Assembly: GCF_002258785.1 (NCBI RefSeq)
Contig: NZ_NOYI01000009.1
Coordinates: 1 to 64,000, forward strand
From: Rhodococcus sp. 06-235-1A
GTDB lineage: Bacteria; Actinomycetota; Actinomycetes; Mycobacteriales; Mycobacteriaceae
DNA length: 64,000 bases
Direction: 5' to 3'
In this document: positions 60,071 to 64,000 of the stretch, one piece after another
How the letters are laid out: the number at the start of each line of letters is the position of its first letter
How positions within the stretch are numbered: the stretch's first letter is position 1
The notes under the pieces: generated by a model
Told to the model about the DNA's origin: nothing
The model's database searches: none
Seen by the model: only the letters and a program-made list of their open reading frames with translations
Translations under genes and position numbers: made by a program

Positions 60071-61574
<1,504 letters not shown>

Positions 61575-61619: not shown

Positions 61620-61988
61620 ATGAAGGCATTCGGCTCGGCAGTTCCGATTCTCCGCATCTTCGACGACGTCGAAGCGCGCGCGTTCTATCTGGACTATCTG
61701 GGCTTTTCGGTCGAATGGGAACACCGATTCGAACCGGATCTTCCGCTCTACATTCGCATTTCGCGCGGGGACTGCACCCTGGATCTGTCCCAGCACTACG
61801 GCGACGGCACTCCGGGAACATCGGTGTGGATACCGATCCCGGACGTCACGTCCTTCAATGCCGAACTGCTACAGAAGAACAGCCCACGCAGCCGACCCGG
61901 AATCGATCACGACGCACCGGGCGGGCCGACCATGACGGTCATAGACCCGTTCTCGAATCATCTCAATTTCTGTCAGGTGAATCACTGA
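61620..61988 (+). CDS. VOC/glyoxalase-superfamily protein
   Basis: 122 residues: VPILRIFDDVEARAFYLDYLGFSVEWEHRFEPD, LYIRISRGDCTLDLSQHYGDGTPGTSVWI and MTVIDPFSNHLNFCQ. This is the bleomycin-resistance-like branch of glyoxalase/VOC proteins, which bind or modify small molecules. ATG 61620, 45 bp after the TetR gene. The ThrRS leader begins 43 bp after its stop, so it may share a role in resistance, as inference. Confidence 0.83.
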   Translation: MKAFGSAVPILRIFDDVEARAFYLDYLGFSVEWEHRFEPDLPLYIRISRGDCTLDLSQHYGDGTPGTSVWIPIPDVTSFNAELLQKNSPRSRPGIDHDAPGGPTMTVIDPFSNHLNFCQVNH

Positions 61989-61994
61989 TATCTC

Positions 61995-62024
61995 TTGCCA
62001 GCCGTCACTCGATCGTTGTACCGT
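61995..62024 (+). promoter_or_regulatory. Promoter for the threonine leader
   Basis: TTGCCA (61995-62000) and TACCGT (62019-62024, TANNNT type) are 18 bp apart. Transcription would begin near 62031-62032, exactly at the ATG of the leader peptide, so the leader mRNA is predicted to be leaderless. Confidence 0.55.
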
Positions 62025-62031
62025 CCAAGCC

Positions 62032-62088
62032 ATGATGCACCTGCAGCCACTGACGACGACGCCGGTTTTCTTCCGGCGTCCGAAGTAG
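62032..62088 (+). CDS. Leader peptide with three consecutive Thr codons (thrS2 attenuator)
   Basis: 18 residues: MMHLQPLTTTPVFFRRPK. The three ACG codons (62053-62061) are the hallmark of a control peptide that reads charged tRNA-Thr. No ribosome site precedes it; the promoter geometry predicts a leaderless start. A GACGCCGG/CCGGCGTC hairpin (62058-62065, 62073-62080) begins inside the Thr codons. The stop codon TAG (62086-62088) lies 24 nt before an intrinsic terminator. A second ATG at codon 2 is an alternative start. It is a regulatory peptide rather than a functional protein. Confidence 0.78.
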   Translation: MMHLQPLTTTPVFFRRPK

Positions 62089-62112
62089 GCCTGCAAAGCC
62101 CCTGTTTCGACG

Positions 62113-62139
62113 AACCCCGGGAGTTGTTCCCGGGGTTTT
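62113..62139 (+). terminator. Attenuator terminator upstream of the ThrRS paralogue
   Basis: AACCCCGGGA (62113-62122) pairs with TCCCGGGGTT (62128-62137), 5-nt loop, followed by a TTTT run. It sits between the leader peptide and the synthetase gene. An alternative pairing of 62071-62084 with 62106-62122 would sequester its 5' arm (antiterminator). Confidence 0.85.
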
Positions 62140-62186
62140 GACGTTTCTGGGCACTTCTTCTGGGCCACAGCAGAAGTGGAGCACCC

Positions 62187-63404
62187 ATGAAGTTCGACCA
62201 CAGCCAGCTCGGGCGCGAGTTGGATCTCTTTGCAACCAGCCCGGCCATCGGTGCCGGTCTACCCGTCTGGCTCCCAGACGGCGCAATCATCAGAGCGGAG
62301 TTGGAGAAACTGGCGGCCGAGGAATCGGCTCGATCGGGATGTCTCGGCGTCTACACCCCCGTCCTGGCCAAACGCTCGCTGTTCGAGAGATCCGGGCACT
62401 GGGACAAATTCTCGGCCGATATGTTCCCCCCGATGCGCATCGGGGGCGAGGAATACGTTCTGCGACCGGCCAATTGCCCTCATCACACCCAGGTCTTCGC
62501 AGCACGCGGACGCAGCTTTCGTGACCTTCCGTTTCGAGTATCGGAGCTGGGGTCGATGTTCCGAAGCGAACTGTCCGGTGTACTGGGCGGATTGACCAGA
62601 GTTCGGCAGATCTCACTCGACGATGCGCATGTGTTCTGCACCCCTGATCAGGTCGGAGACGAAGTCCGACTGGCTCTCGCCTCCATCGAAAGATGTTATC
62701 GCGTAATGGGACTCGTTCCCTCGTTCAGGCTCTCGCTTCGGGGCAGGACTGGACGCTACCTGGGTGACGCCGCGCAGTGGAGTACCGCCGAGGGGCAGCT
62801 ACGCGCGGCACTGGGTGATCGTGAGTTCACCGTCGGCTATGGAGATGCCGCCTTCTACGGGCCGAAAATAGATGTACAGGTCGCCGGTCATCAGGAGACT
62901 GTGTCGACCGTGCAGGTCGATTTCAATCAGCCCGAGCGGTTCGGCCTCGACTACACCGGGTCCGACGGTGAGAAGCATCGACCGGTGATGATCCACCGCG
63001 GCGTGCTCGGTTCGATGGAGCGTCTGACCGCGATGCTGATCGATCGCCACGCAGGTCGAATGCCACCATGGCTCGCACCTCGGCAATTGGCGGTGATTCC
63101 GGTGAGCGCGTCGGATTCCCCGCCGGCGAACGCGCTGGTCGACCGACTGCACGACGCATCAGTACGTGCCGAGATTCTCGAGGACGGTTCCCTGGGCGCA
63201 CGTATCCGGAGTGCAAGACTGCATCGCGACTCCTACATCGCGGTCATCGGCGAACGAGAGCGAGACAGTGATGCGGTCTCGGTCTCGTATCCTGCACTGA
63301 ACGCGACAGCTGTACTCGGTAGGCACGTTTTCGTCGCGGCGGTACAGCACGACATACATTCTCGCGCTCTGCTTCCCACTGTCCCGGACACGGAGAATCA
63401 CTGA
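62187..63404 (+). CDS. Short threonyl-tRNA synthetase paralogue (no TGS/editing domains)
   Basis: 405 residues against about 640-690 for bacterial ThrRS. It starts directly at the class II catalytic core and keeps Zn ligands Cys97 (ANCPHH), His148 (DDAHVFC) and His270 (VMIHRGVLGSMERL). Motif 2 region LGSMFRSELSGVLGGLTRVRQ and YGPKIDVQV are also present. The anticodon domain follows (PPWLAPRQLAVIPVS). The N-terminal TGS and editing domains are absent, and the position of E. coli Gln381 is Leu144. It should charge threonine without self-editing. GTGGAG precedes ATG 62187 by 5 nt. The upstream Thr-codon attenuator predicts induction when charged tRNA-Thr is low. Confidence 0.88.
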   Translation: MKFDHSQLGRELDLFATSPAIGAGLPVWLPDGAIIRAELEKLAAEESARSGCLGVYTPVLAKRSLFERSGHWDKFSADMFPPMRIGGEEYVLRPANCPHHTQVFAARGRSFRDLPFRVSELGSMFRSELSGVLGGLTRVRQISLDDAHVFCTPDQVGDEVRLALASIERCYRVMGLVPSFRLSLRGRTGRYLGDAAQWSTAEGQLRAALGDREFTVGYGDAAFYGPKIDVQVAGHQETVSTVQVDFNQPERFGLDYTGSDGEKHRPVMIHRGVLGSMERLTAMLIDRHAGRMPPWLAPRQLAVIPVSASDSPPANALVDRLHDASVRAEILEDGSLGARIRSARLHRDSYIAVIGERERDSDAVSVSYPALNATAVLGRHVFVAAVQHDIHSRALLPTVPDTENH

Positions 63405-63450: not shown

Positions 63451-64000
63451 ATGAGCAAGCTACGAATCCTCGCCGCCCTCACAGTCTCGACATCCCTGCT
63501 GGTCAGTGGGTGCTCGTCAACGGACGAACCGTCTACCGTCGAGCCGACCACCACGACGCCGTCGAGCGGGAACATCAGGACCGACGACGTCCAGGCTGCC
63601 CTGGACGCTCTGGTCGACGCCGGATCCGTGGCCGCTGTTGCGCAGGTACGCGACGGTGAGGATTCCTGGTCGGGAGCGGCCGGTCTGGTCGAGCGCGGGG
63701 GCACCGAGGCTGCGTCCGCCGACGACCCGGTCCGTATCGCCAGCGTCACCAAGGCAATGGTTGCCGCAGTGGTGCTGCAGCTCGTCGACGAGGGAAAGCT
63801 CGAGCTCGATCAGCCGGTAGACGAGCTGCTACCCGGCCTGCTGCCCAAGCCGGTCACCGTCCGTCAGTTGCTCGATCACACCAGTGGCGTGCCGGACTAC
63901 TTCACCGGATTCGACTCTGCGGAGCAGATTGCATCTCGCTCCGCCGATTCCATTACCGACGACGAGTTGATCTCACGGGCGTTGGCGATGCCCTGGACGA
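63451..64000 (+). CDS. Serine hydrolase, beta-lactamase/DD-peptidase family (cut by window end)
   Basis: The first 183 residues are seen; the gene continues beyond the window. A signal peptide with lipobox VSGCSS, a Thr/Pro linker, then the class C beta-lactamase/DD-carboxypeptidase fold with catalytic Ser-x-x-Lys in RIASVTKAM and later HTSGVPDYF (Tyr of the YxN-like region). Substrate unknown: peptidoglycan, esters or beta-lactams are all possible. ATG 63451 lies 47 bp after the ThrRS paralogue. Confidence 0.88.
   Translation, partial: MSKLRILAALTVSTSLLVSGCSSTDEPSTVEPTTTTPSSGNIRTDDVQAALDALVDAGSVAAVAQVRDGEDSWSGAAGLVERGGTEAASADDPVRIASVTKAMVAAVVLQLVDEGKLELDQPVDELLPGLLPKPVTVRQLLDHTSGVPDYFTGFDSAEQIASRSADSITDDELISRALAMPWT

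Follow-up and report, generated by a model that had tools for sequence, protein, structure and literature searches.

A predicted threonine attenuator before a short, editing-less threonyl-tRNA synthetase gene in Rhodococcus and other actinobacteria

The leader and its gene

The stretch of DNA analysed here, which we call the window, is 64,000 nucleotides long and comes from Rhodococcus sp. 06-235-1A (contig NZ_NOYI01000009.1, positions 1 to 64,000 of the forward strand). Near its end lies the gene for a short threonyl-tRNA synthetase (ThrRS) of 405 amino acids, at 62187-63404 on the plus strand, with a GGAG ribosome-binding site at 62178-62181. Between this gene and its promoter, on the same strand, is a short leader which appears to be a real and conserved threonine attenuator of the classical kind, placed on an auxiliary ThrRS. 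An earlier note, made from the letters of the sequence alone, had pointed to this arrangement, and it is followed up here by folding, by comparison with relatives and by a literature search.

The promoter consists of a -35 element, TTGCCA (61995-62000), and a -10 element, TACCGT (62019-62024), with an 18-nt spacer between them and 7 nt between the -10 element and the start codon. The leader open reading frame (ORF, 62032-62088) opens on a leaderless ATG at 62032, encodes MMHLQPLTTTPVFFRRPK in 18 codons and closes with a stop codon at 62086-62088. Three consecutive threonine codons, ACG ACG ACG, occupy 62053-62061 and would serve as the control codons. Promoter, leaderless ATG, 18-residue peptide, threonine codons and ThrRS gene had all been named in the earlier note, and each was present where it had been placed.

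Folding of 62032-62140 returned both of the hairpins that had been proposed (minimum free energy -49.4, z -4.81, 0 of 200 shuffles as good). Hairpin 1:2 (62058-62080) pairs 62058-62065 with 62073-62080 in 8 bp. Hairpin 3:4 is a predicted intrinsic terminator at 62112-62139, in which 11 bp (62112-62122 with 62128-62138) are followed by a U tract. Segment 2 (62071-62084) would form the 5' side of an antiterminator and segment 3 (62106-62122) its 3' side, the 3' part of segment 3 doubling as the 5' arm of the terminator. When a stalled ribosome was simulated, by omitting the RNA to 62070 and halting transcription before the 3' arm of the terminator, the antiterminator that had been drawn by hand re-formed, with 62071-62076 paired to 62117-62122, 62077-62080 paired to 62109-62112, and a mean pairing probability between segments 2 and 3 of 0.96. 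A generic promoter and terminator scan of the window returned neither the leader promoter nor the terminator, a miss which we put down to the limits of its E. coli-like criteria. A T-box riboswitch was looked for as well; nothing in the window scored above the gathering threshold of any Rfam family.

Conservation of the leader

The leader was compared across 76 loci with a short ThrRS gene: the window, 8 congeners, 7 named genomes and 60 loci from a sample of the class. Two of these (L176 and L177) lie at contig ends and were excluded from the leader counts, which leaves 74 readable upstream regions. All 74 have a leader ORF with Thr-Thr-Pro (TTTP in 73, ATTP in 1), and all 74 also have the hairpin and a terminator-like hairpin, features whose absence among relatives the earlier note had named beforehand as telling against its reading. 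The peptide is commonly of the form MQRAxxTTTPExVPAR. Every upstream region thus holds a predicted short leader with a run of cognate codons, as a ribosome-dependent attenuator should. In each of the 74 leaders a TAnnnT element is found 6-7 nt upstream of the start codon, an arrangement seen in 16 of 6660 control windows; the start codons had been picked by a criterion of 5-8 nt relative to TAnnnT. Such spacing agrees with a leaderless start throughout the set. The positions of codons and stems would also suit a switch: with a ribosome stalled on the threonine codons, segment 1 would be blocked and segment 2 left open in 69 of the 74 leaders; with one at the stop codon, segment 2 would be wholly covered in 68 leaders and at least partially in 70.

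It is hardly credible that an unused small ORF, a GC-rich hairpin and the terminator of the upstream glyoxalase gene have fallen together here by chance. The terminator does lie downstream of the glyoxalase gene too, but the arrangement is conserved at short thrS genes across several actinobacterial genera and families, and the motif ACGACGACGCCGG-N3-9-CCGGCG, which matches once in the window, was found in 0 of 100 shuffles.

The first threonine codon is ACG in 69 leaders, ACC in 4 and GCC (Ala) in 1. The second and third (62056-62061 in the window) are ACG in all 74 with no synonymous change, and the proline codon is likewise invariant. This invariance speaks against too simple a reading of the run, because the sense of the codons and a constraint on the nucleotides themselves become inseparable. 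The second threonine codon sits almost entirely outside hairpin 1:2, yet it is always ACG; perhaps it is the CGU isoacceptor that is sensed.

In E. coli, ThrRS regulates thrS by binding its own leader, which mimics tRNA(Thr). Autogenous control of this type, with the small ORF a by-product, could draw on the 7-nt loop of hairpin 1:2 in the window, but loop length and sequence vary, no conserved Thr anticodon was seen in the loop, and the features that are conserved are the coding ORF, the promoter spacing and the terminator. We regard such control as very improbable, and attenuation by a translating ribosome as the better account of what has been conserved.

Folding and covariation

Covariation was scored on a fitted alignment of 49 leaders. 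A covariance model, R1, was trained on 29 leaders, L138 and L171 having been dropped from the 31 chosen, and the antiterminator was tested separately on 72 of the 74 leaders, anchored by hand (L118 and L119 were left out).

The terminator helix covaries strongly. Its cells are 92.6% paired, 9 of its 13 pairs are changed on both sides somewhere in the alignment, and all 61 doubly changed cells of the combined 1:2 and 3:4 structure fall within it; shuffles gave 12.8, and 0 of 500 gave as many. The fold of the window and this covarying helix together place an intrinsic terminator before the structural gene, the second feature expected of a ribosome-dependent attenuator.

The antiterminator reached a probability of at least 0.5 under the stall mask in 71 of the 74 leaders. 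Among the bases that flank CCGG in segments 2 and 3 of the hand-anchored set, 34 of 48 are paired (16 unique combinations), compared with a permutation mean of 27.5 (p 8.5e-4), and counting Watson-Crick pairs only there are 28 against 17.6 by permutation (p 1e-4).

Several results weigh on the other side. The first flanking base taken alone gives a permutation p of 0.047. On the fitted alignment the antiterminator is 92.1% paired against 90.8% when shuffled (41 of 500 as high), its doubly changed cells number 5 against 2.2 (14 of 500), and its covariation score is equalled in 87 of 500; slid versions of the pairing reach 30-73% there. Its fold energy across the leaders does not stand out from that with segment 3 shuffled (median z -0.81). 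Hairpin 1:2 is paired in 99.3% of cells across the 49 leaders and 4 of its 6 pairs are invariant, so that it offers no covariation information, and with no ribosome its probability is at least 0.5 in just 38 of 74 leaders. The U tract is absent from many terminator hairpins of the class loci. Taken with the stall-masked folds, these results leave a mutually exclusive antiterminator supported but not proven.

Proposed mechanism

The leader is very likely a device for ribosome-mediated transcription attenuation, sensing the charging of tRNA(Thr) and gating an auxiliary, editing-less ThrRS. Judging from the promoter geometry, RNA polymerase would begin at 62032 or a neighbouring position, and translation would initiate directly on the 5' AUG. 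With ample Thr-tRNA the ribosome would reach the stop codon and cover segment 2, segment 3 would pair with segment 4, and transcription would end at about 62139. With Thr-tRNA scarce, whether from threonine starvation or from an inhibited housekeeping ThrRS, the ribosome would stall on ACG ACG ACG and cover segment 1; segment 2 would then pair with segment 3, the terminator would be blocked, and the short ThrRS would be produced. The Ser-tRNA(Thr) that an editing-less enzyme makes might be cleared in trans by the housekeeping ThrRS. The purpose of such a switch may be a backup that tolerates natural ThrRS inhibitors.

Coupling of the leader to the gene

The leader and the gene tend to occur together. 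Of the 61 class genomes in which a short gene scored above 510 bits, model R1 finds a strong leader in 59, some of these 59 leaders having been in its training set, and the other two genes end at contig edges. Four further strong matches were found in the class (G124, G411, G276 and G269). G124 has a short gene with an insertion, which was found through its leader. In G411 (L210) and G276 (L211) the leader precedes a full-length ThrRS, the sole ThrRS matched in each genome. Among the 37 genomes of the genus, leader matches at E <= 6.7e-6 are confined to the 9 genomes that carry an intact gene, all of which have one, and to G010, whose copy is broken (L178); the line between strong and weak was drawn after the matches had been seen, and weaker ones (E 4e-5 to 2.5e-4) occur in G005, G012 and G034.

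In another genus (g27, which we infer to be Streptomyces), 102 of 199 genomes have a leader match at E <= 1e-5, one of which is apparently false (L255, E 8.5e-6). Eleven of these stretches, picked for second copies and low scores, were read, and no call was made for L260 and L261. A short ThrRS stands behind the leader in L253, L256, L257 and L258, and no short ThrRS or a broken one in L251, L252, L254 and L259. The terminator is lost in L252, the -10 element and part of the terminator in L254, and the stop codon of the leader in L259.

Two cases do not sit well with the coupling. The leader of L251 looks intact, yet no ThrRS ORF is visible behind it, and G269 has an intact-looking leader (L212) at a contig end, although no short ThrRS turned up in the genome.

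Outside the class, G655 (L266) has a strong leader before a short ThrRS, possibly through horizontal transfer or misplacement. Eight stretches (L213-L220) from the 21 weak places that R1 matched in the class, at E 2e-5 or worse, were also read and set aside; none has a leader with a threonine run before a synthetase. The full-length enzyme of G276 has YYAPK and a Met at the position of L489, unlike most, and its gene lies near an AMP-binding/glycosyltransferase fusion and HIT, PdxS-like and YebC neighbours.

A separate group of short synthetases

The source genome (6.1 Mb) carries one full-length ThrRS, of 707 aa as scanned, in addition to the 405-aa copy in the window. The window protein scores 396.3 bits against TIGR00418 (threonyl-tRNA synthetase; cut-off 383.65), and its only Pfam matches are PF00587 and PF03129, the class II core and the anticodon-binding domain. 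Its zinc ligands are C97, H148 and H270. The earlier note had described a paralogue that lacks both the editing and the TGS domains and had expected a full-length thrS elsewhere in the genome. The full-length gene was found, with tRNA_SAD, the editing domain of canonical bacterial ThrRS, and tRNA_SAD was absent from all 16 short proteins scanned, which bears out the editing part of the description. The absence of TGS is judged from the length of the short protein, because TGS was not reported even in the full-length ThrRS at the E-value used.

In the genus, the short gene is intact in 9 of the 37 genomes (the window and 8 others) and broken in G010. Its closest named orthologues are in Rhodococcus sp. 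IEGM 1381 (89%) and Leaf278 (86%), and others occur in R. globerulus, two Microbacterium, Nocardioides, Intrasporangium, Antribacter and Kribbella. The class sample has a short ThrRS in 61 of 394 genomes, the source included (above 510 bits, other listed matches being at or below 445); four candidates were scored per genome, and some short genes may be missed. Of 80 homologue loci, the other 70 (L047-L116) comprise 68 with an in-frame N-terminal extension of more than 150 aa or running off the contig, and two with no extension, L068 and L069, both from Patescibacteria. A tree of 61 cores, one of them a Firmicutes row, puts the 21 short ThrRS on one side of a branch with 100/100 support, apart from the actinobacterial housekeeping enzymes. 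The short gene therefore appears to be an old separate lineage and not a recent truncation.

Five class genomes that carry multiple ThrRS genes but no strong leader (G074, G197, G207, G268 and G342) had all of their matches in frames of 642-875 aa, none of them short-looking. Each has two or three ThrRS genes of full-length size, second copies of another kind.

The active site and the purpose of the enzyme

Residues were compared, in human numbering, among 77 short proteins (the 76 loci and L209), 33 actinobacterial full-length enzymes and 56 others. Housekeeping loci with no usable core were dropped, and the 56 include a Rubrobacteraceae row (L075) and the two short Patescibacteria rows. All 77 short proteins retain the catalytic and zinc residues checked (C413, H464, H590, R442, D462, Y540, T560, Q562 and D564). 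Some of the residues that contact borrelidin, taken from the accessible text of PMC4389257, are replaced. M411, which is M in all 33 actinobacterial full-length enzymes and all 56 others, is S, A or G throughout the 77 short proteins. At Q460 every one of the 77 has L, where Q is found in all 33 actinobacterial full-length enzymes and in 53 of the 56 others. At A592, 74 of the 77 have S or G (all 33 actinobacterial full-length enzymes have A), and at L567, 74 have Q or K.

Similar changes are known from producers of ThrRS inhibitors. As far as the consulted parts of the two papers go, the second or producer ThrRS is altered at inhibitor contacts that include L489 (human L567): ObaO has G463S and L489M (PMC11252418), and S. 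parvulus ThrRS differs at H391, F539, Q566 and L567 (PMC4389257). The short clade is unlike these in retaining the equivalents of G463 and F539, its changes being at M411, Q460, A592 and L567.

Some of the comparison counts against tolerance. S. aureus ThrRS also has L at Q460, 26 of the 56 enzymes from other phyla have V or T at A592, Q stands at L567 in 14 of the 33 actinobacterial full-length ThrRS as well, and the glycine whose change makes ObaO resistant, according to the portion of PMC11252418 seen, is unchanged in the short clade. Inhibitor tolerance is therefore an inference from the residues, and an inducible, inhibitor-tolerant backup is a plausible role for the short enzyme.

The attenuator could also be real and the enzyme serve plain threonine or zinc economy, a reading which rivals the purpose and not the mechanism. 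No polyketide synthase (PKS) or non-ribosomal peptide synthetase condensation domain was found among the few neighbours scanned, 4 in the window and 10 at the full-length thrS of G276, and there is a known case of a second ThrRS that serves a different stress, the T2 enzyme of Anabaena, induced by low zinc (PMC4787780, in the part consulted). On the other side, the short enzyme retains all three zinc ligands, and inhibitor tolerance is the better match for the replaced borrelidin contacts and the patchy distribution. We think economy a real possibility, although a somewhat doubtful one.

The promoter

The -35 element TTGCCA is also present in the Rhodococcus relatives L008-L013, and not in L014 or L015. 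In the window it is preceded by GATATC (61987-61992, plus strand), at -32 from the -10 element and one mismatch from GAAAWY, the WblC/WhiB7 box. Of the 74 promoters, 21 have an exact GAAAWY at -32 to -34 from the -10 element, all of them from class loci, and 46 have one with at most one mismatch near that position, against 3.7% in controls. Neither the window nor its congeners have an exact box. Two-input control of the promoter is likely in some members of the family but not in the window, whose congeners do not preserve GATATC and have a TTGCCA -35 element instead; the GATATC of the window is probably non-functional as a box. In the accessible text of PMC7157823, GAAAWY is the WblC site upstream of the -35 element and S. 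coelicolor thrS2 is counted among the genes that WblC activates. A site for sigma-E at SCO3778, which codes for a threonyl-tRNA synthetase, has been described in ethanol-stressed cells (PMC10771440, as far as seen).

These boxes, and the place of thrS2 among the WblC-activated genes, would also suit a general sensor of translation stress, in which drug-stalled ribosomes on a threonine-rich leader act as the signal, the threonine codons are incidental and the gene belongs to the WblC/WhiB7 set. We consider this unlikely: the run is threonine in 74 of 74 leaders, a ThrRS stands behind it, also in the two full-length cases, and the exact box is absent from the window and its congeners. Since both can act together, WblC control would complement attenuation rather than replace it. 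The broadest version of the attenuation reading is a widespread actinobacterial module for inducible tolerance, in which a threonine-charging attenuator, in many members combined with a WblC/WhiB7 promoter so that translation stress and uncharged tRNA-Thr are separate inputs, releases a dedicated, editing-less ThrRS lineage with replaced inhibitor-contact residues, and fidelity is traded for survival when the main ThrRS is poisoned. We put this forward tentatively and rate it a little short of even.

Comparison with known systems

A close parallel is the reportedly antibiotic-resistant, auxiliary tryptophanyl-tRNA synthetase (TrpRS) gene of S. coelicolor, trpRS1, which Vecchione and Sello are said to have shown in 2010 to be under ribosome-mediated attenuation. 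An auxiliary synthetase gated in this way, with the logic of an inducible backup, is what the window suggests too, and as in the trpRS1-like class the second copy stands beside a housekeeping one. The cases differ in the amino acid, Trp instead of Thr, and in that resistance belongs to TrpRS, the threonine enzyme showing residue changes at borrelidin contacts. To our knowledge, the loss of the editing domain has no counterpart in the trpRS1 case.

Classical attenuators on actinobacterial aminoacyl-tRNA synthetase genes were described for trpS2 and leuS in Streptomyces, and the part of that survey consulted reports none for threonine (Seliverstov 2005, PMC1262725). The Anabaena pair T1 and T2 is similar in that a second, editing-impaired ThrRS serves under stress and the first supplies the editing; T2 differs in retaining a degenerate editing domain and in being under Zur control and not attenuation (PMC4787780, in the text available).

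The earlier note knew of no described example, and here it has to be corrected. The accessible text of a 2021 reannotation of S. lividans TK24 gives a leaderless thrL (SLIV_19412) before thrS (SLIV_19410), with termination 'not clear' (PMC8079986). Like the present leaders, thrL encodes a leaderless threonine peptide before thrS, and its MKRVRPFLETTPGFVPAR resembles MKRAQPFLTTTPDSVPAR (L127). It is unlike them in coming from one species and in having two Thr codons, and the text seen does not state that thrS is a short paralogue. The same source has a metL leader before metNIQ that contains ATTTPGAR, resembling the thr leader. Within a literature search that subscription papers mostly lay outside, we found no account that treats the leader as a family or connects it with an editing-less ThrRS. 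New as far as that search reached are the family-wide anatomy, the link to an editing-less paralogue, the leaders on two full-length thrS genes and the positioned WblC/WhiB7 box.

If the reading is true, many actinobacteria hold a dormant second ThrRS that is on only when Thr-tRNA is short, and ThrRS inhibitors such as borrelidin or obafluorin would be limited in these genera. The leader would be a simple RNA reporter for ThrRS inhibition, and the question would arise of how cells tolerate or clear the Ser-tRNA(Thr) made by an enzyme with no editing domain. As a conserved element, the leader could also make an Rfam family.

Other features of the window

Beside the ribosome-binding site of the short gene is an inverted repeat (62149-62181 in the window), and its pairing is preserved in L012 despite changes. 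A hairpin at this site was considered and is not claimed: its median z was -1.50, with z < -2 in 20 of the 70 loci folded (four were left out). A GGTC...SD...GACC repeat around the site, in which SD marks the ribosome-binding site, occurs in 34 of 74 loci with non-significant flank covariation (p 0.21) and is not claimed either.

The four neighbours in the window are a TetR-type regulator (61014-61574), which adjoins a divergent alpha/beta hydrolase (60071-61003), a Glyoxalase_7 protein (61620-61988) upstream of the leader, and a beta-lactamase-fold serine hydrolase (63451-64000) that is cut by the end of the window.

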